Shown here piece by piece: positions 21,795 through 46,612 of a stretch of DNA of 64,000 nt (its first letter is position 1; each line of letters starts with the position of its first letter). This DNA is from Candidatus Desulfofervidus auxilii (GTDB taxonomy: Bacteria; Desulfobacterota; Desulfofervidia; Desulfofervidales; Desulfofervidaceae), in assembly GCF_001577525.1 (NCBI RefSeq), contig NZ_CP013015.1, forward strand, positions 167,173 through 231,172, given 5' to 3'. A model generated the notes under the pieces. That model made no database searches, had not been told where the DNA came from, and was given only the letters and a program-made list of their open reading frames with translations. A program made the position numbers and the translations under genes.

Positions 21795-21819
21795 GCTTTG
21801 TTTCTCTCCTGTTCAAATT

Positions 21820-28007: not shown

Positions 28008-28237
28008 TGAATAAGGTATTCATTGAAACTGACTTTCCTATAAAAGCAGTAAGTGCCCAAAGGGCAAAGGAAAAGAATATAAGACATGGACATATTTCTA
28101 CCTTGCATATCTGGTGGGCGAGACAACCGCTTGTAGTTTCTAGAGCAACTATTTATGCATCCTTAATTCTGAAGGAGGCTGTGGGTGTGGTAAGTTATAT
28201 GATATATGTGATAAAGGTTTGGAGGAAAAAACAATGA
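28004..28237 (+). pseudogene. Truncated N-terminus of a DUF1156 DNA methylase
   Basis: The first ~53 residues ([19 protein letters not shown] ... [15 protein letters not shown]) are the DUF1156 N-terminus and are clearly related to the copy at 31865, then similarity stops after SLI and a meaningless tail leads into the next gene. The rest of the methylase (motifs DPFAGGG and DPPY) is absent. DUF1156 proteins are methylases of defence loci. Confidence 0.8.
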
Positions 28238-29253
28238 TAGAAGTTCTTGAAATAAAGAATTTGAAATCCATCAAAAATCTCAATCTTAGTTGTTTAAAGA
28301 TAAATATTTTCATTGGAGAGCCAAATACTGGCAAGTCTAACATCTTGGAGTCCTTGGGAGTTTTATCTTTTCTCGCTTATGGGAATAAATCTTCTTTAAA
28401 GGATTTTGTGCGATATGAAACATTATCAAATTTATTTTTTGATGAAGATTTGGAGAACGAATTACAAATAAGATTACAGCATAAAACAGCATCAGACGTA
28501 TTTGAAATCATTTTTACTCAGGAGGACCGTTTTAAAGGGACATATTTTGGCTATGATGTTTCTAAAAATTTCAAAACAGACAAAAAAAATTTGTTTGAAT
28601 TTGACTATATGGCAAAAGGACAATATGAACGTGAACAAAGATTTGAACACATAAAATTCTATCGTTTTGAAAAAAGAGGACTTTTTCCTGAGAAATACTC
28701 TTCGTGTTTGTTACCACCGTTTGGTTCTAACTTATTGTCAGTTTTAAAAACACATAAAAATTTGAAACAAGAGATAATTGACAACTTCCTTAAACCTTTT
28801 GACTACAAACTAATGTTTAAGCCTCAAGAAAATAAAATAGAAATTGTTAAGCAATATGACGATATACTTATAAGCATCCCCTATGCTTTGATTTCGGATA
28901 CTTTTCAGCGTCTTATTTTTTACTTAACGACTATACTATCAAACAGGGATTCCGTTCTCGTTTTTGAAGAGCCTGAATCACATACCTTTCCCTATTACAC
29001 AAAATTTTTGGCAGAAAGTATTGCTTTAGATGATAAAAATAACCAATTTTTTATTTCCACACATAATCCATATTTTCTATTTTCAGTTCTTGAAAAGAGC
29101 AAAAAAGACGACATAGCTGTCTTTGTAGTTTATATGGAAAATTTTGAAACAAAAGCTAGAAAATTGACACAACAAGAAATAGAAGAGGCCATGAATATTG
29201 GTCTAGATTTCTTTTTTAATCTTGACAGGTTTAAAAATGAAGAGCAGGAATAA
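28234..29253 (+). CDS. AAA ATPase of the ABC/OLD-like type
   Basis: 339 aa from ATG 28234, behind GGAGG at 28222-28226. Starts MIEVLEIKNLKSIKNLNLS and has Walker A GEPNTGKSNILESLG (residues ~28-42); Walker B VFEEPESHTFP and the H-loop FFISTHNPYFL lie near residues 240-275. The long middle insertion is that of single-chain SMC-like ATPases used in defence pairs such as PARIS and Gabija-like systems. Four base pairs upstream of a small conserved-looking partner, so a two-gene unit. It has interrupted the first DUF1156 gene. Confidence 0.8.
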   Translation: MIEVLEIKNLKSIKNLNLSCLKINIFIGEPNTGKSNILESLGVLSFLAYGNKSSLKDFVRYETLSNLFFDEDLENELQIRLQHKTASDVFEIIFTQEDRFKGTYFGYDVSKNFKTDKKNLFEFDYMAKGQYEREQRFEHIKFYRFEKRGLFPEKYSSCLLPPFGSNLLSVLKTHKNLKQEIIDNFLKPFDYKLMFKPQENKIEIVKQYDDILISIPYALISDTFQRLIFYLTTILSNRDSVLVFEEPESHTFPYYTKFLAESIALDDKNNQFFISTHNPYFLFSVLEKSKKDDIAVFVVYMENFETKARKLTQQEIEEAMNIGLDFFFNLDRFKNEEQE

Positions 29254-29256
29254 TCA

Positions 29257-29727
29257 ATGAAATACCTTATTGAATGCAAGCCAGACAAGCTTTTAATAAA
29301 GCTTGTTACTGGTGCTCCGAAAAAGTCAGTAATTCACACCGCAAATAAAACAGAAGTCATAAAGATGCTTTTTAAAATTCCTGATGATGCTATTGGCATC
29401 ATAGATGAGGACCCAGGAAGTTCTCACCCATCACATTTGAAGAAGTTTAGATTAAAGCAAGATTTATCGGAGCATGGGTTAGCAATGCTGGAAGAAAATG
29501 ACTCGGGAAAGAAACTAGTTATCATTAAGCCACGCTTAGAAGAATGGCTCTTAAGAGCTGGAAAAGAAAGTGCTATTTCTTTTAAAGAATACAACTTGCC
29601 AGAAACGGGAAAAGATTTGCATAAGGTGATAAATACTAATCTAGAGAGACTAAAATTAGTTTTAAAAGAATTACTTGAGGAGAGATGTGTCAGATTGCAG
29701 AAATTGAAAGAAATTTTACTAAAATAA
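29257..29727 (+). CDS. Small partner of the AAA ATPase (Toprim-like motif)
   Basis: 156 aa, 3 bp behind the ATPase gene. The central part AIGIIDEDPGSSHPSHLKKF contains a D-E-D pattern after a hydrophobic strand, reminiscent of the DxD motif of Toprim or DUF4435-like effectors, and is followed by LVIIKPRLEEWLLRAG. No named family recognised. ATPase plus small acidic-motif protein resembles defence pairs in which the ATPase holds or activates the effector. Confidence 0.5.
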   Translation: MKYLIECKPDKLLIKLVTGAPKKSVIHTANKTEVIKMLFKIPDDAIGIIDEDPGSSHPSHLKKFRLKQDLSEHGLAMLEENDSGKKLVIIKPRLEEWLLRAGKESAISFKEYNLPETGKDLHKVINTNLERLKLVLKELLEERCVRLQKLKEILLK

Positions 29728-29772
29728 AAATTGCTTAAAAAAATTTTCTTTTATTTTTAACCATGATAAAAG

Positions 29773-29871
29773 CTTTGCAAAATGTAGGGTGGAACTTTAT
29801 GTCCACCAATATATTACGGTGACAAATAAACCGCCATCCTACACTTTGATAACAAAATGTGTTCTGCAAAG
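29773..29871. repeat. 99-bp imperfect palindromic element (MITE-like)
   Basis: Outer ends CTTTGCA (29773-29779) and TGCAAAG (29865-29871) and inner arms TGTAGGGTGG (29783-29792) and CCATCCTACA (29834-29843, 9 of 10) form a nested inverted repeat. It lies between the ATPase pair and the 655-residue gene, and its right end touches the latter's start. Confidence 0.5.
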
Positions 29872-29876
29872 GGCTT

Positions 29877-31844
29877 ATGATATATAAAAACTATATAAAA
29901 CAAAAAGCAAGAGAATTAATCTGGGAACGAGCTATAAAACTTCTTACGGAAAATCGAGAAAAATCAACTTTAATTTATCCTAAAATTATGTATTACTATT
30001 GGGAGCATATTATTAGCAAATATAGCAATATATTAAAATTTGACCTATCAAAATTGACTGAAAGTTCTTTGGAATCTTTCCTGAAGGTTAGAGAGTCTAA
30101 AATCAGTTCCAAATCGAGTAAAGAATTAAAAGTTCTTTATTTATGTGGTCCCGAGCCAGAAAATGATATAGAATGTTTATTGAATTTAGGAGTTATACCA
30201 GAAAATATATGGGCTATAGAAAAAGATCCAGAGATATTTAAGTATGCTTATAGTAGTATAAAATATCTATATCCAAACATTAAAATACTTCAAGAAAAAA
30301 TAGAAAATATATTAAGTACTTTAAGGACAAAATTTGATATAATTTACTTAGATTTTACTGCTCCTTTTTTCTCAAAAAGACAAAAGCCTTTTCGTGCTTT
30401 ACACCAAATATTGATCCAGAATTCACTAGAAGATTTAAGTGTCTTAATTACAAACTTTTCGGAATTAGATAAAAAAGAAGAATATATTAACCTATTAACG
30501 CATTATTTTTATCATCAAAATCTTATAGAGTCTGGAATTATAGAAATAACAGAAGGAGAAATAACTGAGGGACCTATAATTTACGGTTTAGAAACCGACC
30601 ATTTTAGAAAATTAATTCACGATAACTTAGAACGGGCTTATTCTGCCTTTTTGACACATTATCCTATATATTTTTCCTGCAGAATATTACCTGCTATAAA
30701 TATTTTTTCAAATAAATCATTGTTTAAACTTTTAATAGATAAAAATGCATATAAAAAAGCGATTAAGAAAATTTCAAATATATCTTATATAAATGCCACC
30801 TGTGCTAAAAACTTAGACCTTACAGGTGGAGAAAAGTTTTTGCAACCTGAAAATTTTTGGTTTGAATTTTTTATAGATGAAATAGAAAAAATAGAGGACC
30901 TAAATTTTTGGAGGAGCCAATTTTCTCAAAAGATTTCTGAAAAAGGACTATATATTTCAATAAAAGAAGCTGTTTCTATTATTAATTTAATAAGAATGTT
31001 TGTGGAAGGTTATCATGATGTAATAAATAGTCAAATAAGAAAAAGAATTTTAGAAACACAGGAAAATGTTTTAGGACAATATGTATTTTGTGATATAGCT
31101 TTTCCTCATTTATGGATTGAACTGATTATTAATCAATTAGGACATCCATATCACGCTAATATCGAAAAACATTTTAGATTTAGCTATAGAGCAAAGGAAA
31201 GAAAAATGTTTGTGGATATGTTTCTTTTTGATAAATGTCGTTATTTTTATGATTGGATTCCAACCGTATTTTTGCTTCCTGAAATGATGTTAGATGTTGA
31301 AAAGCAATTAGTAACTAGGATAGTTATAGACATAATATCAAAACATTATAGATATGTTTTGCCTGAAGTTTTTTGGGGAGCAGCATTAATAGGTATGAAT
31401 GAAAAACAATGGGCAAATTTTAAGACGCTCAGTAAAAGAGAATTTTTAAGTATTTCTGTAAAGGGAAATAATATTTATAATGATCAAATTTATTTTCTTG
31501 AAATTTTAAAATTAGCGAAAACTCAAGCTATAAGAGTAAGAGATATTATGCAAAATAAAGTAAAAATATTTAAGGACTTGGGCGAAAAACATACATGGTT
31601 TGGTTCAGCCTGGATAAAAATTATAGATAAAAATAATCCTTATGGAAAATTTGGGATCTTATTTAGAAAGTTAAAAATCAAAGATGAAGTAGGATGGGAG
31701 TATGATAGTAAGACTGGATTTTTACGTATTTGCAACTTTTATGATGGTCATGAATTTCTTGTATATAAAGCAGCTTATGAAACTGCATGTTCAATTTTAC
31801 AAAGAGCAGGTATAAAATGCAAATTAATAGAAATTTTAGACTAA
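29877..31844 (+). CDS. Large protein of unknown family with a Rossmann/SAM-like N-terminal part
   Basis: 655 aa from ATG 29877 (a GTG six codons upstream is also possible). Residues ~85-165 read [19 protein letters not shown] ... [19 protein letters not shown] ... [15 protein letters not shown], the strand-loop-acidic pattern of a SAM- or nucleotide-binding Rossmann fold. The remaining 490 residues are Ile/Lys/Phe-rich and not recognised. No signal peptide or membrane span. Very AT-rich codon use. Embedded in the defence island between an ATPase pair and a DUF1156 methylase; a methyltransferase-like defence protein is possible. Confidence 0.5.
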
Positions 31845-31864
31845 ATTATAAGAGAGAAACAGCC

Positions 31865-33130
31865 ATGAAAAACAAAACCTTTATTGAAGCCGATTTTCCT
31901 ATAAAAGCAGTGAGTGCTGAAGGTGCAAGGGAAAAGAATATAAGACACGGACATATTTCTACCTTGCATATTTGGTGGGCAAGAAAACCACTAGTAGTTT
32001 CTAGGGCTACCATCTATGCGTCTTTAATTCCTGCACCCAAGAATGAAGAAGAAAGGATAGCAAAAGAGCAATTTATTGCTATCTTTTCAGATGAATATAA
32101 AAAATGGCTTGAGTCTAATAAAGGAAAACAGCCATCTAATATTTTACATTATACATGTCTGGCCAAATGGGAAAATTCTTTAAATAAAAAAATTATTGAA
32201 AGGGCTAGAAAGGAAATTTTAAAGGCCAACGGTGGTAAACCACCAAAGGTTTTAGATCCATTTGCCGGCGGTGGTGCTATTCCGTTAGAGGCATTAAGGC
32301 TTGGCTGTGAAACTTATGCTGGTGATTTAAATCCAGTAGCTGTATTGATTTTAAAATGTACTTTAGAATATCCACAAAGATATGGAAAACCTGTAAAAAG
32401 GGAAGTTAAAGGAAAACTTATAAAAGAAGATGTTAATCCTCTGCTTGAAGCAGTTAAAAAATGGGGCAATTGGGTTTTAGAAGAGGCTAAAAAGGAAATT
32501 GGTCAATTTTATCCAAAAGATGAAGATGGTGCCATACCTGTGGGATACTATTGGCTAAAAACTATTCCATGCCAAAATCCAACATGTGGTTGTCAGATAC
32601 CACTTACTGCAAATTTCTGGCTGGCAAAAAAGGAAAATAAAAAAATTGCCTTAAAGCTTATTGCTGATAAAGAAAAAAGAGAAATCCACTTTAAAATAGT
32701 GGACAATCCAGATTTCGACCCAAGTAAAGGCACTGTTTCTAGGGCAAAGGTTGTTTGTCCTGTTTGTGGGAGTGGCATTGATGATAAAACCGTGCGTAAG
32801 CTCTTTCAAGAGGGGAAATCTGGGCAAAGGATGGTAGCAGTTGTATTGCATTATTCTGATAAAACAGGAAAGACCTATCGTATTGCGACGGAAAAAGACA
32901 TAGAAATTTTTAAGTCTGCTTTCTCCGTTTTGACACGATGGGAATCTATGAGAGAGACTCCTGCTAATGTTTTTGGAAGACAAGCATTACCAATGATGTG
33001 GGATTTTACGGATATAAATCCTTTTAGTGGAGCAACAGGAGGTATAAAACAAAATTTGAACTGGATTCTTAATGTCCTCTCCCACCTCTCTCAAATCCCA
33101 CCTGTAGAATCAAGGAAGGAAGAAAAGTGA
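31865..33130 (+). CDS. DUF1156 DNA methylase, N-terminal half (gene split)
   Basis: 421 aa from ATG 31865; an earlier in-frame start lies inside the preceding gene. Begins with the DUF1156 domain ([34 protein letters not shown]), then SAM motif [21 protein letters not shown] near residue 130, and cysteine pairs CQNPTCGCQ and CPVCGSG (zinc-like). The frame ends after [13 protein letters not shown], just where intact relatives run on into a segment equal to the gene at 34010. The stop overlaps the following nucleotidyltransferase gene by 4 bp (GTGA). Confidence 0.85.
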
Positions 33131-33615
33131 ACAGAGAAGAAGCAAAAAGGATTTTGGAGATTATGGCTACCGCAGATGGGGAATGTGTTTATTGTGCAAG
33201 AGAGCTATTTATCCAATTCATCAAGAAATTCCCAATGTTTTCAGATCTTGCTAGGGACGTTTTTAAAAGGAAGTTCAACGAAGAACTTGAACATGGAAAT
33301 GAAAAAGAAATCTTAAAACACACGATAAACAAAGTTATGAAGCAAAATAAAATTGATGTAACACACACAATCCTTTTTGGCTCAAGGGCAAGGGGAGATT
33401 TCAAATCAGAAAGTGACTGGGATGTTCTTGTAATTGTCAGAAACAACTTATCTATCAAGGAGAAGATGCTTTATTCAAAAAAGGTTAGAGAAAACCTTGC
33501 AAAGCTTGGCATTGATTGCGATTTAATAATCAAATCTGAAAAAGAGGTTGAGAGTTCTAAAGAAATGTTTGGTTCGGTTATAAGGGAGGCACTAAAGGAA
33601 GGGATGTCACTATGA
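33127..33615 (+). CDS. MNT-type nucleotidyltransferase (antitoxin of HEPN-MNT pair)
   Basis: 162 aa. Active site motif [19 protein letters not shown] (residues ~78-96, GS-R-x-R-G-D...D-x-D) of minimal nucleotidyltransferases. An extra N-terminal helical segment of ~65 residues with Cys-x-x-Cys precedes it. MNT proteins neutralise HEPN RNases by adding AMP. Overlaps both neighbours by exactly 4 bp. Confidence 0.88.
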
Positions 33616-37538: not shown

Positions 37539-37615
37539 TTTTCTTTGCTAAAACAAGCTATTTTATAAATCCCTCTTGATTTTTTTCTTCAAGCTTGTTA
37601 AAAATGAAAAGATGC

Positions 37616-37670
37616 TCCCCGGTAGCTCAATTGGCAGAGCGCCTGCCTGCCGCAGGCAGGGGTGGCTGTT
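37616..37670 (+). pseudogene. 5' half of a duplicated tRNA-Asn, interrupted by a palindrome
   Basis: TCCCCGGTAGCTCAATTGGC and the following D-arm are identical to the intact tRNA at 37909; after GAGCG a 19-bp palindrome is inserted, then GGTGGCTGTT (anticodon stem and loop up to the anticodon GTT) resumes. The sequence then runs straight into the GIY-YIG gene. No 3' half follows, so it cannot make a tRNA. Confidence 0.88.
37642..37660. repeat. GC-rich palindromic dispersed repeat, copy 3 (inside half-tRNA)
   Basis: CCTGCCTG-CCG-CAGGCAGG, a perfect 8-bp stem with a three-base loop, inserted between the D-arm and the anticodon arm of the tRNA-Asn fragment without loss of flanking tRNA bases. 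Confidence 0.85.
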
Positions 37671-37946
37671 ATGGAAAGTTGGTATGTATATGTACTAAAG
37701 AGTTTAAAAGACGGTAAATTATACACAGGTATAAGTAGGAATCCAGGAAAGAGATTAGGTGAACATAACAGAGGTAAGACAAAATCTACTAAATATAGAA
37801 GACCCTTTGTTTTGATATATACAGAGGAGTGTGTGTCTTTAAAGCAGGCACGAGATAAAGAAAAGTTTTATAAATCAGGAGGCGGTAGAGAAAAATTGAA
37901 ATCAATACTCCCCGGTAGCTCAATTGGCAGAGCGGGTGGCTGTTAA
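37671..37946 (+). CDS. GIY-YIG nuclease (UvrC-N/UPF0213-like) embedded in tRNA-Asn locus
   Basis: 91 aa from ATG 37671, which directly follows the anticodon of the half-tRNA (an upstream GTG at 37662 is also possible). Domain WYVYVLKSLKDGKLYTGISR (GIY/YIG motifs), KRLGEHNRG and RPFVLIYTEE, KEKFYKSGGGREKL. The last 13 or so residues (PGSSIGRAGGC) are a translation of the 5' half of the intact tRNA, and the TAA stop lies in the anticodon loop. Probably a selfish endonuclease cutting tRNA-Asn genes at the anticodon and restoring the gene with its own half copy. Confidence 0.85.
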   Translation: MESWYVYVLKSLKDGKLYTGISRNPGKRLGEHNRGKTKSTKYRRPFVLIYTEECVSLKQARDKEKFYKSGGGREKLKSILPGSSIGRAGGC

Positions 37947-37984
37947 CCACTAGGTTGCTGGTTCGAGTCCGGCCCGGGGAGCCA
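37909..37984 (+). tRNA. tRNA-Asn (anticodon GTT), CCA encoded
   Basis: Acceptor stem TCCCCGG/CCGGGGA (37909-37915 with 37974-37980), D-arm GCTC/GAGC, anticodon stem GGTGG/CCACT with loop CTGTTAA and anticodon GTT at 37942-37944, T-arm GCTGG/CCGGC with TTCGAGT loop, discriminator G and CCA at 37982-37984. Its 5' half also encodes the end of the GIY-YIG protein. Confidence 0.97.
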
Positions 37985-38215
37985 TCTTAATGGCTGTTTC
38001 AAACTCATTTAAAGTATCCTTCCGACTTATCCGCACAAGGGAGAAAGCAGGAAAAATAAAAATCTCTCTTTCTCCTATTCTGGAATGAGAATAACACCCC
38101 ACTCCCGAAAAAGAAAGTTTTAAAATGTTTGACTTTTTGTTTTTCTTTGCTATATTTTAATCTGTAATGTCAAATTGTAATAAACTCTGGCAGACATAAA
38201 GGAGTTTAAATTGTT

Positions 38216-38284
38216 ATGGAAGTTTCCTCAGAAATAATGACCCTTGAGGAGACTGCAAAATATTTAAAGAATGTCAATAATTAA
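38216..38284 (+). pseudogene. Truncated excisionase-type HTH gene acting as operon leader
   Basis: Frame MEVSSEIMTLEETAKYLKNVNN: EIMTLEETAKYL is identical to the start of the intact HTH gene at 45806, then a one-base change and the break end the reading frame. It keeps a ribosome binding site (AAGGAG at 38199-38204), and the ATPase start codon at 38271 lies inside it in another frame, so it may feed ribosomes to the operon. Confidence 0.75.
38231..38272 (+). repeat. Left copy of inverted ~41-bp repeat bounding the six-gene cassette
   Basis: 38231-38272 matches the reverse complement of 45939-45979 over 41 bases except for one extra A. Both are the start of an excisionase-type gene. The six-gene operon occupies exactly the space between them. 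Confidence 0.8.
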
Positions 38285-39467
38285 AAACATAAACAAAATG
38301 GACAATATAAAAATAAAATATCCACATTTTCATTTGTCTGATTGGCCTTTTAGAGTTGTACCTGATGAAAGTTTTTACTCTTTTATGGCTGATAGAACTC
38401 AACTAGTTGGTGATATTAATACTTTATTGCGCAATCTTTCAAGACAACCTGCCTCGAGTATTCATTTAATGTGGGCATGGTTTGGAGCAGGCAAAACACA
38501 TACATTGAGACATATTGAATATTTATGTAAAACCAAAGTTTCTAATATAATTCCTATTTATATCGAGTTTCCTAAATCTACTAAGAATTTTTTAGATATA
38601 TATAGAGCATTTATAAATGGAATTGATATAGAAACATTAAAAAACGCTTATCTTGAAATATTTACAAGTCCAGAAAAAGATAAAATTCAAAAGAAATTAC
38701 ATTTTGATTTCCCAGATTTGTCTAATGCTTTAATGCTTCTGTATCAAGGAAATTTAGAACAACAAGAAATTGCCATTCGTTGGTTACGGACAGAGTATCG
38801 AGAGAAGAAAATACTTAGAAATATAAATGTTGTGAAACCAATTCAATCAGCGGAAGATGCTATTAAAGTAATTTCATGGTTAATTCGTCTTTTAAGCTCA
38901 GGAGAGGTTATTTCGGGCGAGGTTAAAAGAATATTATGGATGATAGATGAATACCAAAGAATAGAAAAATTAAGAAAATCTGTTATAGAAGAAATCAATG
39001 GTTGTTTACATTCAATATTTAACCAATGTCCCAATGGACTTTCAATTATAATTTCTTTCTCTGGATATCCAGAAGAAAAAAGATACCCAACTTGGTTATC
39101 TCCAGAAATTAAAGATCGTATTGGAATTGAAAAACCATTATTACTTCCACCATTATCAAAGAAAGAAGCTTTTAAATTTATAGAAGATATTTTATTACAT
39201 TTTAGAGCTTATCCATCACACATTAATATTCATGACAGATATTTCCCATTTACCAAAGAATCTATTGAGAAGGTAATAGATATAATAATAGATAAAGCAA
39301 AAAAGAGTAAACGAAAAGATGAGGAACCGAAACCTCGAACAATTATGCAATTTTTTAATTTGATTTTACAAGAAGCTGATCCACTGATTGAAAAAGGCAA
39401 GATGGAAGCAATATCTTCTGATTTTGTATCTAAGATTTTAACAAACATAAATTTACCAGAGGAATAG
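38271..39467 (+). CDS. P-loop ATPase 1 of six-gene cassette
   Basis: 398 aa (an internal ATG at residue 10 is an alternative start). Walker A in MWAWFGAGKTHTLRHIEYL (residues ~68-86), Walker B ILWMIDEYQRI at about 225, sensor-like SIIISFSGYP, and a C-terminal helical part. Looks like an AAA/STAND-type ATPase related to the archaeal ORC/BrxC-like group, and is a distant paralogue of the ATPase at 40248 (shared G-x-GKTHTL). No proper ribosome binding site of its own; probably reinitiation from the truncated HTH leader. Confidence 0.75.
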   Translation: MSIIKNINKMDNIKIKYPHFHLSDWPFRVVPDESFYSFMADRTQLVGDINTLLRNLSRQPASSIHLMWAWFGAGKTHTLRHIEYLCKTKVSNIIPIYIEFPKSTKNFLDIYRAFINGIDIETLKNAYLEIFTSPEKDKIQKKLHFDFPDLSNALMLLYQGNLEQQEIAIRWLRTEYREKKILRNINVVKPIQSAEDAIKVISWLIRLLSSGEVISGEVKRILWMIDEYQRIEKLRKSVIEEINGCLHSIFNQCPNGLSIIISFSGYPEEKRYPTWLSPEIKDRIGIEKPLLLPPLSKKEAFKFIEDILLHFRAYPSHINIHDRYFPFTKESIEKVIDIIIDKAKKSKRKDEEPKPRTIMQFFNLILQEADPLIEKGKMEAISSDFVSKILTNINLPEE

Positions 39468-39471
39468 GACA

Positions 39472-40245
39472 ATGCCTTTAATAAGTGAGATTGTCGGGCA
39501 AGAAGGAGTATATTCTTTATTAACTTCACTATATAAAGAAAAAGATACTTTTACTACAAGTGAATTAAATGAATTATTAAAAGAAACCGGTATCTCTGAT
39601 AATTTATTTTCAGAATTAGTAAGATTTGGACTTTTTATAGAGACTAAAGATGGATTTTATATTTCTTCTTTAGGTCAAAAAATTACTTTGCTTTTAAAAG
39701 CTATTAACGAAGATGAGGAAATTTTTCAAGTGTTTCAAGAACTTACATATTTTTATCCAAATCTCAGACCTTATGAGATTATAACTGAAAGCATTACTAA
39801 TTATTTTATTGATAATCTTTATAATAGACCTGATTTTATAAGAGTGTATATTTGTTCTCCTTGGATTCGGTTAGATAGGGGTCATATAGAAAAAATTGAG
39901 TCGGCCATTTACAAAGCTTCAAAACAGTATAAGAATATTCAAGTTTTTGTAATCACTTTACCAATAGAAAGATATCGTAGTAGAAAAGCGATTGATACTC
40001 TTAGAAACTTAAAACAGCTTGGTGCTGATATTGTAGTAAATGATAAACTTCATGCAAAGCTATATATAAGTGAGCCTGGTCCTTTAGGTGGTGAGTATTA
40101 TGCTATCTTTGGATCTGAAAATCTTACTGGTCGAGGAAATATAGAATTAGCTATAAAGATAAAAAATGACAATGAAATCTTAAGGAAATTAAATTCTTAT
40201 TTTTATGAGATTCGTCAAGAATCTTATATTTTAAAGGAGGTGTAA
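39472..40245 (+). CDS. Phospholipase D-like nuclease with N-terminal winged helix
   Basis: 257 aa. Residues ~1-75 look like a winged-helix domain (FTTSELNELLKETGISDNLFSELVRFGLF). The rest is a single PLD domain with the HxK motif in DKLHAKLYISEPG and GSENLTGRGNIELAI (residues ~190-225). One HKD motif, so a dimer would form the active site. Likely the DNA- or RNA-cleaving effector of the cassette. Confidence 0.82.
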   Translation: MPLISEIVGQEGVYSLLTSLYKEKDTFTTSELNELLKETGISDNLFSELVRFGLFIETKDGFYISSLGQKITLLLKAINEDEEIFQVFQELTYFYPNLRPYEIITESITNYFIDNLYNRPDFIRVYICSPWIRLDRGHIEKIESAIYKASKQYKNIQVFVITLPIERYRSRKAIDTLRNLKQLGADIVVNDKLHAKLYISEPGPLGGEYYAIFGSENLTGRGNIELAIKIKNDNEILRKLNSYFYEIRQESYILKEV

Positions 40246-40247
40246 AA

Positions 40248-41399
40248 ATGGCTAATGGAGTTGCTGAGTGGTTTGGTTTGAAACGCTCAAATTTCATTTT
40301 AGATCCTAAGAATGATGCTGAATTTTATGCTCCAAGGACAGGTGTGGACATACCAAAATTAATTGAAGGACTTCAAGTGAATTTAGTTACAGAACGACCA
40401 CCAAAACGATTTTTTTGGGGAGTTTACGGGGGAGGAAAAACGCACACATTATTTCACATTAGTAAAAAATTAGAAAGTTTACTAGAAATTTATCCAGTTT
40501 ATGTAGAGTGCCCGAGTGTTCCTAAAAAATCTACTTTTTTACATCTCTACCATGATGGAATTATGATGAGCATGGGTCAAGATTTTGTAGTAGGTCTATT
40601 TAAAGATTTAATTAAAAGTATTGGTGTCGTTAGCTTTGATGAATTACTAAACAAGTTAAAAGAAATTTTAGAAGATGAAGAACTTTCTCGGGCAGTTGCA
40701 AGTCTTTTAGGGGCTCGCCCTGATAAAGAACTCACCTTTTGGAGATATGTCTCAGGTGTAAGTGTTCCTTCAAGAGATTTAGCTGAATTAAATCAAACAC
40801 AGTCTCTTGCTGACAGCATCCCTTCTCGACTAGCAAATATTATAATAATTATTGGTCGAGTTATAAAAAAAGTGATGAACAAAACGTTAGTTTTAGTAAT
40901 AGATGAATTAGATAGACTTAAATCTATCGCAGATGAATATGGGATATCGACGTATGAAGAAGCTTTTAGGAAGCTGGTAGATGAAAACCAAAGAAATGTT
41001 GCTATAATAATGGGTTGTTCAGGCGTTAACATGCGAGAATTGCCCGAACCTTTTGCTGGAGGGGAACAAAGCCCTGTTCTTAATAGACTGGGGATACACA
41101 ATCTTATAGAGATCTCTGAAATTTCAGCAAATGACGTCGATAACTTCATCAAAGCAATTTTGAACTATATAGTAGATAAAGAACAGGCTCGGGAGAAAAT
41201 TAATAAATTAAAAGGAAATATAAATGAGACCCTAACAATAGACTTATTTCCTTTTACAAACGAAGCTATTGAAGCTTTGAAAGGAACTTTAAGAGGCATT
41301 ATGACCCCTAGAGAGATAACTCAGAGAATGTCTGATGCTGCGGGAAAAGCATTTCTAATGAAAAAACCTTTCATAACAAGAGAAATTATAGGAGGTTAA
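40248..41399 (+). CDS. P-loop ATPase 2 of six-gene cassette
   Basis: 383 aa with a strong AAAGGAGGTG site. Walker A GVYGGGKTHTLFHI (residues ~57-70), Walker B LVLVIDELDRLKS (~218), and sensor NVAIIMGCSGVNM. AAA/STAND-type like ATPase 1 and probably derived from the same ancestor. Two base pairs behind the PLD gene. Confidence 0.78.
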   Translation: MANGVAEWFGLKRSNFILDPKNDAEFYAPRTGVDIPKLIEGLQVNLVTERPPKRFFWGVYGGGKTHTLFHISKKLESLLEIYPVYVECPSVPKKSTFLHLYHDGIMMSMGQDFVVGLFKDLIKSIGVVSFDELLNKLKEILEDEELSRAVASLLGARPDKELTFWRYVSGVSVPSRDLAELNQTQSLADSIPSRLANIIIIIGRVIKKVMNKTLVLVIDELDRLKSIADEYGISTYEEAFRKLVDENQRNVAIIMGCSGVNMRELPEPFAGGEQSPVLNRLGIHNLIEISEISANDVDNFIKAILNYIVDKEQAREKINKLKGNINETLTIDLFPFTNEAIEALKGTLRGIMTPREITQRMSDAAGKAFLMKKPFITREIIGG

Positions 41400-41406
41400 G
41401 TAAAAA

Positions 41407-42882
41407 ATGGTAAAGCCCATTCCAAAATTGATTTTTAGAATTGAACCAGCATATTCTTTTCAACAAGAACTCAAAGCCCCACTTTTTAGAGAAAACAATA
41501 TATTAGTCGGAATGATAGGCTGTGGATTGGAATTAGAGGCTATCTTTTTAGGGAAGATTGCTGAATATGGAAAAAATTTAAATATATGGCTAGATTGCGA
41601 AGGCGCACATGCTATTTATGTAATTGGTAAAAGAAGATCTGGAAAAACTTATACTTTAGGGGTAATTGCTGAAGGGTTAGTGTCAAATAAATGGTTAAAA
41701 CAGGGGGATCAAAAACAGGCAATTCTTGTTCTTGATACAATGAATGTTTTTATTACTTCATCATATAGTGTTAAAGAAATTTGTAAAGAAAGAAGCAAAG
41801 AATTTGAAGAATTTAAAAAGTGGAGTTTAGAGCAAGAAAAACTTAATATAGTATTTTTTTATCCTAAAGGCAGTCCTTCTTCTCCAGAAGGAGTTTCACA
41901 AGAAATAGCTATAAGACCAGCGGATTTAGATGATAAAGACTGGGCTGCTCTTTTTAATGTAGATATATATAAAGATCCTATCGGGCAACTTATCTCTGAG
42001 CTATATGAAAAAGTAGCTTTAGAGGGTTATAAGGATTTAAATGGAAAATATATACAAGCTAATCAGAACTATTCCTTAATTGATTTATTAAACTGTTTAG
42101 ATAATTGTCCAGAAATTCAAAGAAGTTATCAATCTGATACAATTCGAGCAGTTAAGTCTAGATTTAAAGCAATTAAAAGATTACCTATTTTTTCTGAGGA
42201 AGGAATCGATATCAAAAAAATTTTTTCTTGTGGACAACTTTCCATTTTACTTCTTAGAGATATTGATCAGAATTTAAGAGCCCTTTTAGTCGGAATATTA
42301 ATTAAAAAAATAATGGAATTACGGAGTATTTCTGACAGGTTTGAAAGATTATGTAGAGTGCATAGAGAACGTTTTGAGCATTTTAAAGAAATAGGGGATG
42401 AAAAAAAAGCAAATGAAGCTTATCAAAAATATAGTGAATATAAACAAAAAGCTCAAGAAGGTTTACCACGAGGATGGATTATTATTGATGAAGCTCATAA
42501 CTATATGCCATCTAGAGGAATAACTCCATCAGCAGAACCTCTCAGAAAATATGTAAATGAGGGAAGAAATTTAGGTTTATCTATAGTAGTAGCCACTCAA
42601 AATCCATCTGCTTTAGACCCTTCTATTCGTCGAAACGCAGACATTTTAATTGTACATTCAATCAGTATGAGAGATGATATTTTTACTGCTGAAGGTATGG
42701 TGAATACATTTATTCCAGACCTTTTTGAGTTTGGAAGAGTAAAAATTTCAACAAGAGTTTTTGAACAACTGGTTAGAAGTTTACCAATAGGATATGCTGT
42801 TATCTCAAACGATATGATAAATAGGGTGTTAGTGGCAAAAATAAGGCCAAGAATAACAATCCACGGAGGAATAGAATATTGA
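41407..42882 (+). CDS. HerA-like ATPase
   Basis: 491 aa with a strong AGGAGG site. Walker A YVIGKRRSGKTYTLGVIAEG (residues ~77-96), Walker B WIIIDEAHNYMPSRG (~356), and the HerA/FtsK-type arginine-finger and sensor region GLSIVVATQNPSALDPSIRR. A hexameric DNA translocase is expected. HerA proteins cooperate with nucleases in defence (with Sir2, PLD or DUF4297 partners), here probably with the PLD protein. Confidence 0.85.
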   Translation: MVKPIPKLIFRIEPAYSFQQELKAPLFRENNILVGMIGCGLELEAIFLGKIAEYGKNLNIWLDCEGAHAIYVIGKRRSGKTYTLGVIAEGLVSNKWLKQGDQKQAILVLDTMNVFITSSYSVKEICKERSKEFEEFKKWSLEQEKLNIVFFYPKGSPSSPEGVSQEIAIRPADLDDKDWAALFNVDIYKDPIGQLISELYEKVALEGYKDLNGKYIQANQNYSLIDLLNCLDNCPEIQRSYQSDTIRAVKSRFKAIKRLPIFSEEGIDIKKIFSCGQLSILLLRDIDQNLRALLVGILIKKIMELRSISDRFERLCRVHRERFEHFKEIGDEKKANEAYQKYSEYKQKAQEGLPRGWIIIDEAHNYMPSRGITPSAEPLRKYVNEGRNLGLSIVVATQNPSALDPSIRRNADILIVHSISMRDDIFTAEGMVNTFIPDLFEFGRVKISTRVFEQLVRSLPIGYAVISNDMINRVLVAKIRPRITIHGGIEY

Positions 42883-43949
42883 TACAGCCACGTTTTATTA
42901 TGAAGACACACACAGGAGCTTTGAGGCCCGGAAATTATTCTATACTTATCGCTAAATGTACCTCTCCAGATAAGAGTTATTATCCTGAGCAAGTTGAGGG
43001 AAAATTAGCAAAGTTTATAGGTAGTAGATCAATTGCCAAGTATGTAGTTTTAATAGCTACAACAAAAAACCGAGGCTTTGGTTTTTTATTAGATAATATG
43101 ACTTGGAGTTGGAAGGGGCATGTGATAAATGCTGTCCTTAAATATTTGGGTAAATTCTCAGAAGATAAAAATGTTTATTTCAATCTATCTCAATTAGAAA
43201 AAATAGCTTATCTTAAATATTTCTTAGAAACAGAAGGAGCTTTAATTTTGAAATTCTCTGAAAAATTTGCTGATAAAAAAGAAATAACCTATTCTCATTT
43301 AAAAAATGAAATTCAAAATATATTTGAAGAAATTTATGAAGGCTATATAGATATAGCCCCTGATTTTAGAATAAGAATGAAGATCAAAGAAATGTTTAAA
43401 GAAATGCAAAGAAGAATGAAAAACAAAAAACATGTTTATGACAAAAGTACATTACCTCACAAGATTAAGCCTCATCTTCAAGCTTTATGTGATTTAGGAC
43501 TGTTAGAGGTGAAAAATGAAAATACGGAAGAGATATATAAGGTGGTCATTCATAATAAAATAAATCCTTTGGAGAGCTTATATAAAGAATTAAAAAACTT
43601 CAAACAGCTTGAGGAATCCATTGAGAATAATAACTTTTTCCCTATAATAGGGAAAATTTTGGGGTTAAATCCAACTAAATATTCCATAAAACAGCATGAA
43701 GAATTGCTTAAGGAGACTTTTCTTTTGGGATATAGATCAATGAAGAACGTTGTTGGGTTAGCCGATATTAGTGCTCTTGTTGATTGGTGTTGCATAAAGC
43801 TACTTTCTGAAAAGAATATTCTAATTTATCCTCAAGATGTTCAAGAATTTTTAGATAAAATAAGAAAGTATAATCCTTCTAGCATCCGATATCATGTGAA
43901 TGGAAAAGGAAGGATATCTTATATAATTTGGGATGAAACTTTTAATTAA
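42879..43949 (+). CDS. Uncharacterised protein of the six-gene cassette
   Basis: 356 aa. The first start is a TTG overlapping the herA stop (TTGA); ATG at 42900 (MKTHTGALRPGNY) is the more likely start. Residues ~45-75 (YVVLIATTKNRGFGFLLDNM) form a hydrophobic core; the middle is charged and helical (KEMFKEMQRRMKNKKH), with a winged-helix-like LPHKIKPHLQALCDLGLLEV near residue 190. No family recognised. Could be a DNA-binding or bridging subunit. Confidence 0.5.
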   Translation: MIQPRFIMKTHTGALRPGNYSILIAKCTSPDKSYYPEQVEGKLAKFIGSRSIAKYVVLIATTKNRGFGFLLDNMTWSWKGHVINAVLKYLGKFSEDKNVYFNLSQLEKIAYLKYFLETEGALILKFSEKFADKKEITYSHLKNEIQNIFEEIYEGYIDIAPDFRIRMKIKEMFKEMQRRMKNKKHVYDKSTLPHKIKPHLQALCDLGLLEVKNENTEEIYKVVIHNKINPLESLYKELKNFKQLEESIENNNFFPIIGKILGLNPTKYSIKQHEELLKETFLLGYRSMKNVVGLADISALVDWCCIKLLSEKNILIYPQDVQEFLDKIRKYNPSSIRYHVNGKGRISYIIWDETFN

Positions 43950-45795
43950 AGGAGTTAGAAGCACTGGACATTTTACAGAAATAATTCTCCAGGATGGATA
44001 TAATATCAAATTGAGGCCATTTATTTATGTAAAGAAAGGAGATTTCTTAGAATTTCTTCCATCAATTAAAAAATTTCAAGAAGTATATAAAATATTTGAT
44101 GATAAGGCAACTAGTGAGTTGAAGAAAATAAAAATCCACCCTCCTTATTGCACAAAGGAAACAATCTATTTAGGAGCACATCGTTTCAATGTAATATTTC
44201 GAGAAAGAATTAATTCCAACGATTGGAAGAAGATAAAAGAATTAGAAAAATTCCATTATAGAGGGAAAGGATTAAACAAATTAGTAGGGAGAAGAACCGT
44301 TCTTCTTGCTGAAATGAAGGATCATGGAGTTATTGGATTTGGTGTTATTTCTGCTACAGTTGCTGTTGCTAAACCTAGATTTGAACTTTTACAGACTAAT
44401 TTTACTGATCAAATGAAAACAAAGTTAATCAATCGAATTGTACGAATTCCAAGAATAGTTATCCATCCTGAATTCAGAGGAATAAATTTAGGAGTATTGA
44501 TGGCTAAACATTTAGTTCTATATGCCAAAAAATATTGGGATATTAACCATTATACACCTATTATGGTAGAGGTTATCGCGGCAATGACTGAATATCATAA
44601 GTTTTTCGAAAAGGCTGGGTTTATAAAAATAGGCTATACTTCAGGATATAAAAATGGAATAATACCTATATATGGGAATGGAAGTTTTGAATCAAGAAAT
44701 TATGAGTCTTACGATTTCATGGAAAATCAGAACCCTAAACCTTATTTGGTTTTCCCTTTAAACAAGGAGTTAAAACAAAAAATTAGACTATATTTCCCTA
44801 AAAAACAAAAGATGATTTTACATAAACATCCAAAACTGAAGCATTCAATAAAATTTGAAAATGTCTCTGTTAGTTATAAAATCAGAAATGGATCTACCAA
44901 AAGAACCGAAGTTATAAAAGAAGTATTCGGAGTAGATGCACAGCATGCTTTCTCTCCTATTTTAACAAATTTTTCTTTGGAAATAGAACCTGGTGATGTA
45001 GTTTTAATAACTGGAGCTTCTGGTAGTGGAAAAAGTACAATATTACGACTATTAACAGAAAAAAACACAACTTTGAAAAAAGAGATGGAAATTAGAGGGA
45101 AAATAATTAATAAAAGTTTAAAGGATATCGCAATTCTTGATACTAAATGGAGCAATTCTCTTCCTTTAATTGATCAGATAGGAAAAAATAAAGATATAAA
45201 AGAAGCTATAAAATTACTTAATTCAGTAGGACTTTCAGAAGCTCATCTTTATATAAAAAAACCAAATCAACTTTCTGATGGTCAACGATATAGATTTGCA
45301 GTAGCAAAACTTTGTGATTCTAATAAAGCAATATGGATTGCGGATGAGTTTGTTTCAACACTTAACTCTGAAATGGCAGCAATTGTTGCTAAAGGATTAA
45401 GAAAGGTAGCATATAAACATGGAGCAACACTAATTTTAGCAGCTCCTCATATTCATAATTTTATACATTTGCTTCTCCCTAACAAACTTATAAAACTTAA
45501 ATGGGGAACAAAACCGATTATTTATTCAATAAAAATAATAAATTTTTATCAAAACGGAGATAAAATTTCACTGTCTATTCTTAATAATGGTCATGTACCT
45601 CTTACAAATGTTCAGGTAGGTACAATTATAAGAAATGGTTTTTTTCTTTCACAAAATAATTTTAAACAAATTAATCCTAAGGATGAAATTTGCTGTGAAA
45701 TAAAAATAAGAAACAGTGAATATTATGCTTTAGGAATAAAAACTAACGAGGGAGTAGGGGAAATTTTATATTTAGAAATAATAAACAAGAAATAA
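43933..45795 (+). CDS. GNAT acetyltransferase fused to ABC-type ATPase (COG2401-like)
   Basis: 620 aa. N-terminal GNAT-like part (residues ~60-260) with VRIPRIVIHPEFRGINLGVLM (acetyl-CoA loop) and MTEYHKFFEKAGFIKIGY. From residue ~300 an ABC ATPase: Walker A LITGASGSGKSTILRLL, signature QLSDGQRYRFAVAKL, Walker B KAIWIADEFVSTL, and H-loop ILAAPHIHNF. The C-terminal ~90 residues look like a beta domain. This fusion is the rare, mainly archaeal COG2401 type. No membrane segments, so not a transporter. Overlaps the upstream gene by 17 bp. Confidence 0.82.
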   Translation: MKLLIKGVRSTGHFTEIILQDGYNIKLRPFIYVKKGDFLEFLPSIKKFQEVYKIFDDKATSELKKIKIHPPYCTKETIYLGAHRFNVIFRERINSNDWKKIKELEKFHYRGKGLNKLVGRRTVLLAEMKDHGVIGFGVISATVAVAKPRFELLQTNFTDQMKTKLINRIVRIPRIVIHPEFRGINLGVLMAKHLVLYAKKYWDINHYTPIMVEVIAAMTEYHKFFEKAGFIKIGYTSGYKNGIIPIYGNGSFESRNYESYDFMENQNPKPYLVFPLNKELKQKIRLYFPKKQKMILHKHPKLKHSIKFENVSVSYKIRNGSTKRTEVIKEVFGVDAQHAFSPILTNFSLEIEPGDVVLITGASGSGKSTILRLLTEKNTTLKKEMEIRGKIINKSLKDIAILDTKWSNSLPLIDQIGKNKDIKEAIKLLNSVGLSEAHLYIKKPNQLSDGQRYRFAVAKLCDSNKAIWIADEFVSTLNSEMAAIVAKGLRKVAYKHGATLILAAPHIHNFIHLLLPNKLIKLKWGTKPIIYSIKIINFYQNGDKISLSILNNGHVPLTNVQVGTIIRNGFFLSQNNFKQINPKDEICCEIKIRNSEYYALGIKTNEGVGEILYLEIINKK

Positions 45796-45805
45796 TCTAT
45801 TTTCT

Positions 45806-46015
45806 TTATCTCAGTTCAAACGTTTGACCTTTAGAAAACCACTTATCAATGTCTTCTTTTTTAAATCTCCATTGATTACCGATTTTCACAGCGGGGATTT
45901 TGCCTTCCCTTGCCATTTTATAAAGAGTAGATTTTCCTATTCTTAAATATTTTGCAGTCTCCTCAAGGGTCATTATTTCGGAAAAGTTTTGCATCATAGG
46001 TGTGACTCTTTTCAT
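45806..46015 (-). CDS. Excisionase-type helix-turn-helix protein
   Basis: 69 aa. MTLEETAKYLRIGKSTLYKMAREGKIPAVKIGNQWRF is the classical HTH_17/MerR-like excisionase domain; start could also be the Met at residue 7. Convergent with the six-gene cassette, 10 bp after its end. A 41-base part of this gene recurs inverted at the other cassette end, and the promoter regions of the two copies are also similar (TTGACTTTTTG). May regulate the cassette or be a leftover of mobilisation. Confidence 0.85.
   Translation of the reverse strand: MKRVTPMMQNFSEIMTLEETAKYLRIGKSTLYKMAREGKIPAVKIGNQWRFKKEDIDKWFSKGQTFELR
45939..45979 (-). repeat. Right copy of inverted ~41-bp repeat bounding the six-gene cassette
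   Basis: Lies in the 5' part of the intact HTH gene and pairs with 38231-38272 in inverted orientation. Confidence 0.8.
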
Positions 46016-46299
46016 TTATCAGAACTCATCATCGTTTAACATTGTATAATAATATTAAGCAAAAGAGAGCAAAAAGTCAAGCAAAATGAGAAAAATTTTA
46101 GAATAGGGGGGAGGAGAAGATCTTCTTTCTTGTTTTGGCAAAGCCAAAACATAGGCTGACGAAGACACTTGCCTTGAGGAGGCTTTTTATTAAAGGAATT
46201 TTCCTTAAAAAATCTCTTATTAAAAGATAAAAGACCTTGCCGAGGATAAACTAAATCTTTCTTTTCTTCTACTTAATACAAAACCTATCTTGCGGAAGC
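46016..46299. other. Non-coding stretch with a strong hairpin
   Basis: GTTTTGGC-AAA-GCCAAAAC at 46132-46150 is a perfect 8-bp stem; AGAAGATCTTCT lies just before it. No T-run suggests something other than an intrinsic terminator. The remainder is AT-rich without a supported gene. Confidence 0.5.
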
Positions 46300-46612
46300 A
46301 AGACAAAGCCGACGATGGGCAAGTGCTTGGGCGGCGCCGACTTCTTGGGAACGGTTTTACCTAGCGTCTCAATGGAGGAAAGCTTCCGTTCCATCAACTC
46401 GGCCAGAGAGAACGGAAGCAGGTGAAACACCGCACACCTACCAGCCAAGGACTGTGAGATGCTCTGTAAGAGCAGGAAGTTTTGAGATCCGGTTAGAATA
46501 AACCAGCCTGTTCTATCTGGGTGTTCGTCGACTATGATTTGGATATACGAGAATAGCTCGGGCGCCCGTTGCACCTCGTCCAGGATTACAGGACCGTGAA
46601 ACTGGTTGAGGT
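46300..46612 (-). pseudogene. Fragment of a DUF4143-type AAA ATPase
   Basis: The minus strand encodes YLNQFHGPVILDEVQRAPEL, GWFILTGSQNFLLLQSISQSL and LLPFSLAELMERK, the Walker B to sensor region of the COG1373/DUF4143 ATPases. The Walker A side, and all after LAELMERKLSS, are missing. Noticeably richer in G and C than its surroundings, so probably acquired recently and then decayed. Confidence 0.75.

Follow-up and report, generated by a model that had tools for sequence, protein, structure and literature searches.

Within the 64,000-nucleotide stretch of the Candidatus Desulfofervidus auxilii genome analysed here (NCBI RefSeq assembly GCF_001577525.1, contig NZ_CP013015.1, positions 167,173 to 231,172 of the forward strand; hereafter the window, numbered from its first base), six open reading frames (ORFs) on the plus strand form a compact cassette, which fairly likely belongs to the class of defence systems. 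The cassette encodes an AAA+ ATPase (gene 1, 38271-39467, 398 residues), a PLD-superfamily nuclease (gene 2, 39472-40245, 257 residues), a second AAA+ ATPase (gene 3, 40248-41399, 383 residues), a HerA/FtsK-like translocase (gene 4, 41407-42882, 491 residues), a fast-evolving protein of no assigned family (gene 5, 42879-43949, 356 residues) and a fusion of a GNAT acetyltransferase with an ABC ATPase (gene 6, 43933-45795, 620 residues). The ORFs lie exactly where an earlier note on this DNA had placed them, with gaps of at most 7 bp and overlaps of up to 17 bp (the successive spacings being 4, 2, 7, -4 and -17 bp). A Shine-Dalgarno-like GGAGG is found ahead of genes 3, 4 and 5, and the start codon of gene 5 is TTG. 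All six ORFs are of full length, the Walker motifs, the HKD motif and the ABC signature are intact, and the cassette is AT-rich, with a GC content of 28-35% compared with 34-40% for the flanking genes.

The two AAA+ ATPases are paralogues (25% identity, 8e-9), each having the sequence GKTHTL, as had been noted earlier, and an intact Walker B IDE. Gene 1, which carries WAWFGAGKTHTL together with the IDE, is BrxC/D- and Orc-like, matching the Pfam families AAA_22 (2.6e-5) and BrxC_BrxD (6e-4), and gene 3, with GVYGGGKTHTL, has weak AAA/KAP matches in Pfam. When tested as Orc/CDC6-type ATPases, the matches (AAA_22, BrxC_BrxD and TIGR02928) are all weak. The structure model of gene 3 is poor (predicted local distance difference test score, pLDDT, of 50), and RdrA of RADAR, BrxC and Cdc6/Orc1 are among the structures that it matches best; this hints at, and agrees with, an Orc/Cdc6-type role without proving it. 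Gene 2 has no match in Pfam. Its single HKD motif, with the signature HAKLYI..FGSENLTGRGNIELA, is conserved in the alignment with the PLD protein of a sister locus described below (L008), which matches PLDc_2 at 2.1e-5 and to which gene 2 is related at 4e-15 by BLASTP. The nuclease assignment made in the earlier note is thereby upheld; the winged helix that it had added reads as such in the N-terminal region of gene 2 and is backed by no model. Gene 4 matches the HerA domain DUF87 at 3e-8. For gene 5 no acceptable model match is found in Pfam, PADLOC, NCBIfam or PHROGs, and the AlphaFold2 model is unusable (pLDDT 36); its sequence appears helix-rich, with putative winged helix-turn-helix (wHTH)-like segments. 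In gene 6 the ABC match is strong (ABC_tran, 1.7e-17; motifs GASGSGKS, LSDGQ and IWIADE) and the GNAT match weak (Acetyltransf_7, 0.002; GNAT loop FRGINLG), and the same GNAT-ABC architecture is confirmed in Thermomicrobium roseum (WP_012642421).

Genes 2 to 5 recur, in the same order, in two other loci. The first, L008 (8553-17943), was found in a genome of the same phylum (G213), the sole relative of gene 4 among the phylum genomes searched, and consists of six tightly packed genes on one strand, which encode a PLD protein (179 residues), a BrxD-like ATPase (385), a HerA protein (460), a gene-5-like protein (416), a type IIG-like N6-adenine methyltransferase (1174) and a further ATPase (507). 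The second, L009 (8207-17630), is an IMG/VR metagenomic contig (IMGVR_UViG_3300050015_001122) on which these six genes are arranged alike, at 46-80% identity to L008. The window genes 2, 3, 4 and 5 have matches in these loci, in order and strand, at 4e-15, 1e-32, 1e-87 and 1e-5, respectively. Gene 3 takes the position of the BrxD-like ATPase, whose L008 member matches BrxD at 2e-6 to 2e-5, and the gene 5 match is specific, since among 339 ORFs from five loci only two proteins are found, both of them syntenic, with a profile comparison giving 1e-4. Because the homologues keep their order in L008 and L009, this four-gene core is real and older than the present genome.

The sister loci differ from the cassette in three respects. 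Gene 1 is absent, the PLD protein is shorter than gene 2 and is without its N-terminal extension, and a methyltransferase and an ATPase of 507-530 residues stand in place of the GNAT-ABC gene. The L008 methyltransferase matches N6_Mtase (3e-14), Eco57I (1e-12) and REase_MTase_IIG (1e-59), and its L009 counterpart is 60% identical to it. L009 also has two extra genes, in which the C-terminal domain of this methyltransferase occurs again. The six-gene locus of L008 and L009 matched no named system and has no name in the models or papers searched. In scans of viral contigs with genes 3, 4 and 6, the cassette is seen on L009 only, and the remaining HerA matches are generic and without the neighbouring genes. 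The conserved unit is thus the four-gene core, which recurs, and not the six genes that the earlier note had taken together.

The slot that directly follows gene 5 is therefore of particular interest, being occupied by the methyltransferase in both sister loci and by the GNAT-ABC gene in the window. Since a methyltransferase holds this slot in the sister loci, the GNAT-ABC protein is better read as a modification module than as a signalling one, two roles between which the earlier note had not chosen. The simplest common reading of the three loci is that of restriction-modification, in which one capture-and-cut core would be combined with different marking enzymes. This is also in agreement with the proposal of Aravind and colleagues (Iyer et al. 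2013, cited in PMC7824862), which predicts DNA base acylation by GNAT enzymes that are coupled to an ABC ATPase, as the coupling of the two domains is common to the predicted enzymes and to gene 6. The phage form of these predicted enzymes has been presented as a modification system, and not together with the four-gene core. On this reading, gene 6 most likely marks the DNA of the host by an acyl-type modification of its bases. The broader generalization, in which the four-gene core would be served by interchangeable self-marking modules, an adenine methyltransferase or, as here, a DNA base-acylating GNAT-ABC protein, is possible and is put forward tentatively.

A number of observations weigh against a restriction system that includes gene 6. 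The gene 5 homology is weak and is the weakest link of the core, and the intact six-gene set was not found elsewhere in the data searched. The GNAT-ABC gene of T. roseum (L012, 7170-9451) sits among metabolic genes, beside a convergent gene for an ASCH-domain protein. The only close GNAT-ABC relative is a broken stand-alone gene with three stops (genome G029, 51% identity), and on its contig no trace of genes 1-5 is seen upstream of the pseudogene, where remnants of gene 5 had been expected. In addition, no similarity is detected between the GNAT half of gene 6 and the proteins of phages or plasmids. Some of these points favour the alternative that genes 1-5 alone make up a HerA-type defence system and that the GNAT-ABC protein is unrelated or accessory, with a cellular function such as protein or RNA acetylation: the gene stands alone in G029, as a pseudogene, and in T. 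roseum, and L008 and L009 carry the core without it. However, gene 6 shares 17 bp with gene 5 and occupies exactly the methyltransferase slot, its rarity in the phylum (2 of 390 genomes) equals that of the core and is unlike that of a housekeeping gene, and archaeal loci of the BREX-Related Capture type, considered below, also combine HerA and GNAT. This alternative is judged possible, if somewhat doubtful. A single-protein scan of genome contigs with gene 6 gave, among the matches listed, generic ABC transporters only, and a literature search for COG2401 found nothing.

The distribution of the cassette is patchy. Gene 4 is carried by 2 of 395 phylum genomes, gene 1 by 2 of 277 and gene 6 by 2 of the 390 mentioned, the genome of the window being included each time. 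The gene 4 profile (A4) has no match in two other phyla, neither in 399 genomes of that of locus L003 nor in 399 genomes of that of L004, which is suggestive only, as these sets held no known positive. A deletion scar of gene 1 is present in a genome of the same order (G005:C15:12609-12753, corresponding to L050 10609-10753), where residues 11-57 are preserved at 81% identity (80% at the DNA level, over 148 bp) and the homology ends just before the Walker A motif. The scar is apparently flanked by pssA-like and leuC-like genes, as judged from the ORFs. At least gene 1 was therefore once present in this relative and was then lost, probably along with more of the cassette. Such loss is as expected for defence genes.

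The gene 1 scar also clarifies the 5' end of the operon. Its homology to gene 1 starts at window base 38295, which makes the ATG at 38298 the probable native start codon, so that the ORF annotated from 38271 is indeed present, as the earlier note had it, with its first nine codons probably belonging to a leader that was fused to gene 1 in this lineage. The origin of the leader is visible in a 70-nucleotide inverted repeat (79% identity) that flanks the cassette. The right arm (45943-46012) lies at the 5' end of an HTH_17 (excisionase/MerR-like) DNA-binding protein gene, which is complete, located on the minus strand at 45806-46015 and convergent to the operon. The left arm (38198-38267) is a truncated copy of the same 5' end, which stops where gene 1 starts. 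A leader ORF of 22 codons (38216-38284, plus strand), itself a truncated HTH_17 sequence, encodes MEVSSEIMTLEETAKYLKNVNN followed by a stop codon, has its own AGGAG and overlaps the annotated ATG of gene 1. A 37-bp coding stretch is identical between the two HTH_17 5' ends, and the homology continues upstream across the promoter: a promoter-like site, TTGACT-16-TATATT with a TG extension, lies upstream of the operon at 38129-38156 on the plus strand and has its paralogue in the promoter region ahead of the HTH_17 gene. Aligned locally, the two upstream regions score 28.5, compared with a mean of 11.7 (standard deviation 2.8) for other stretches of the window, of which 1 of 2,228 reaches this value. 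A promoter lookalike at 21801, scoring 31 points, was set aside as a gapped AT-rich match.

Genome-wide, there are two copies of the HTH_17 5' end and no more. The 5' end and promoter of the HTH_17 gene either gave rise to the operon leader or are its sister copy. We infer expression of the operon from a promoter of the HTH_17 type, with a translated leader of 22 codons, and the HTH_17 protein may control both the operon and its own gene, which would probably place the two under common control through the shared promoter sequence. As a matter of speculation, recombination between the inverted HTH_17 ends (38129-38284 and 45806-46110) could flip the 7.7-kb operon and swap its promoter.

The excisionase-like character of the HTH_17 protein and the presence of a tRNA gene 0.3 kb from the cassette bring up the explanation that the cassette serves an integrated element in its maintenance, segregation or transfer, and not in immunity, by means of a HerA/FtsK pump, of Orc-like ATPases and of an ABC protein related to those next to ParB-like genes. 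In line with this, the nearest relatives of the gene 6 ABC half, within the phage and plasmid collections, are ABC proteins beside ParB-like proteins in phage-plasmids (SSU5 and Acinetobacter, 37-39% identity). Against it, no integrase, relaxase, replication or partition gene is recognised in or beside the cassette, genes 1 and 4 have no relative in phage records, genes 1, 3 and 5 have none in plasmid records, and the PLD nuclease, together with the type IIG-like methyltransferase of the sister loci, fits restriction better. Such a role is considered unlikely. The tRNA-Asn gene (37909-37984) was also considered as an attachment site and rejected, there being no duplication of its 3' end downstream of the cassette. 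Between a partial tRNA copy (37612-37649, 89% identity over 38 nucleotides) and this tRNA gene lies a GIY-YIG ORF (37662-37946), the 3' end of which extends into tRNA-Asn; the arrangement resembles the outcome of a small homing or insertion event at the tRNA.

The wider neighbourhood contains further genes of a defence type. The region at 28.2-33.6 kb (28219-33615) encodes an AbiLi/AriA-like ATPase (4e-18), a 661-residue protein of no assigned family, an HmaB adenine methylase-like protein (7e-71, positions 7-392 of 973), which is truncated to 447 of about 970 residues, and a PDC-S09-like small protein. These are read as remnants of a second defence locus, 5-10 kb upstream of the cassette. Downstream are a PDC-S27-like ATPase at 47.7 kb and a fragment of an AAA_14 ATPase (46269-46574, 101 residues), which is probably a decayed gene. 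Defence genes and their remnants nearby support, and do not prove, a defence role, and the defence machine of nuclease, translocase and two ATPases pictured in the earlier note is plausible. The fragments (the HmaB-like half-gene and the AAA_14 fragment) could also speak for a selfish or decaying island without current function, as could the rearranged leader of gene 1 and the fact that relatives keep only scars of genes 1 and 6. Six full-length ORFs with intact motifs, tight spacing and ribosome sites argue against such decay, which is the least probable of the explanations considered.

The defence reading is supported by the patchy distribution, the low GC content, the gene 1 scar, the upstream defence remnants and a capture theme that is recognised in other systems. 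More specifically, the cassette has, in our estimate, about an even chance of being a restriction system against invaders, of the HerA-capture type, in which the methyltransferase slot is filled by the GNAT-ABC protein. From these observations we infer not only the defence role but also the following steps. The AAA+ ATPases of genes 1 and 3, with gene 5 as a putative DNA-binding adaptor, would recognise invading DNA or load onto it, gene 4 would pump it as a HerA ring, and the PLD nuclease of gene 2 would cut the pumped DNA. In gene 6, the ABC ATPase might scan or open DNA and the GNAT domain transfer an acyl group, and the resulting mark on the host DNA would cause self to be spared. A HerA-family pump and a nuclease in one operon are also what would be expected of a DNA repair or end-processing complex, similar to HerA-NurA with another nuclease. 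However, the locus is patchy and looks horizontally acquired, no NurA, Mre11 or Rad50 is present, the HerA repair equivalog models give 22 bits against a cut-off of 970, and the sister loci hold a methyltransferase, such that a repair function is very improbable. Two haloarchaeal plasmid matches (L014 and L015) were rejected as relatives of the cassette, being HerA-NurA loci.

Comparison with named defence systems agrees with the statement of the earlier note that the cassette is unlike BREX, DISARM, Zorya, Wadjet and the two-gene HerA systems. In hidden Markov model (HMM) searches of PADLOC, NCBIfam and Pfam, there is no system-level match for any of the six proteins and no curated cut-off of a named family is reached, and the Zorya and Wadjet models give no noteworthy match. 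Of the BREX core (BrxC, PglZ and PglX/BrxX), only the weak BrxC_BrxD similarity of gene 1 is seen, with no PglZ or methyltransferase, and no PglX, BrxL, BrxA or BrxB is recognised in the cassette. With respect to DISARM, the DrmC similarity is weak and at the level of the PLD superfamily (3e-4), and DrmA and DrmB have no match. For the two-gene antiphage systems, in which HerA is joined by Sir2, DUF4297 or the like, the HerA models NF042943 and NF042944 give 15-18 bits compared with cut-offs of 800-850. The DndH similarity covers about 45 residues of the HerA domain, and DndF and DndG have no match. In the case of MADS, a system of eight mad genes, gene 4 matches the PADLOC model of mad8 at 1e-19 and mad3 matches the ABC part at 4e-11, and no other mad protein is comparably strong. 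Membership was rejected because the mad8 profile is not specific: it finds 54 places in this genome, the best of which, an FtsK-like protein with 131 bits, scores above gene 4, and what remains is P-loop similarity.

The term 'undescribed' used in the earlier note is consequently correct in so far as no named system is matched by HMM, and it is too strong for the HerA-capture theme, which is already published (2024 and 2026; PMC10853773 and PMC12839542). In the BREX-Related Capture (BRC) systems described by Rakesh and Krishnan (2026; PMC12839542), archaeal loci combine HerA with a GNAT and with a TGT that modifies DNA. A Haloplanus plasmid locus (L007, 4272-13697) matches this description, having TGT, BrxC-like, PglZ-like, HerA and GNAT genes, the GNAT following the homologous HerA and the TGT-type gene lying upstream. 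L007 adjoins genes resembling queC, queE and 6-pyruvoyl-tetrahydropterin synthase, which could supply preQ0 for the TGT. BRC and the cassette have in common a HerA protein that is homologous over 91% of its length (about 25% identity, about 450 columns), the theme of a BrxC-like ATPase and a GNAT next to HerA. They differ in that PglZ, DUF6079, DUF4007, STAND NTPase and TGT are all absent from the cassette, where a PLD protein replaces PglZ, for which there is no match, and the GNAT is fused to an ABC ATPase; the gene 5 profile shows no similarity to the L007 protein in the position of DUF4007.

There is a likeness, too, with the capture systems described by Rakesh, Aravind and Krishnan (2024; PMC10853773), for which it is proposed that Orc/Cdc6-type ATPases and wHTH proteins seat the machine on invader DNA, the HerA ring pumps and a nuclease cuts. 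Genes 1 and 3, gene 5, gene 4 and gene 2, respectively, suit these roles. In these systems, as in the cassette, a single operon joins a HerA/FtsK translocase to AAA+ ATPases, which in the cassette are weakly Orc/Cdc6-like, to a nuclease and to a fast-evolving protein that is possibly of the wHTH type. Gene 5, with no model match, would take the place of the multi-wHTH (DndG-like) protein that a subset of these systems has. In the cassette, a PLD nuclease stands for the restriction endonuclease (REase), as no REase, either active or as an inactive insert in the Orc ATPase, is matched by HMM in the six proteins; furthermore, there are two separate AAA+ genes, and a GNAT-ABC gene is added. The theme of HerA capture thereby gains a new nuclease class, and the comparison of the three loci indicates that the gene following the cutting core is exchangeable while the core stays. 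The otherwise orphan GNAT-ABC fusion obtains a concrete candidate role, that of acylating DNA bases within a restriction system; if true, such a system would be founded on an acyl mark of the host DNA. The four-gene core of HerA, PLD nuclease, ATPase and gene 5 offers a handle with which further systems of this kind can be searched for.

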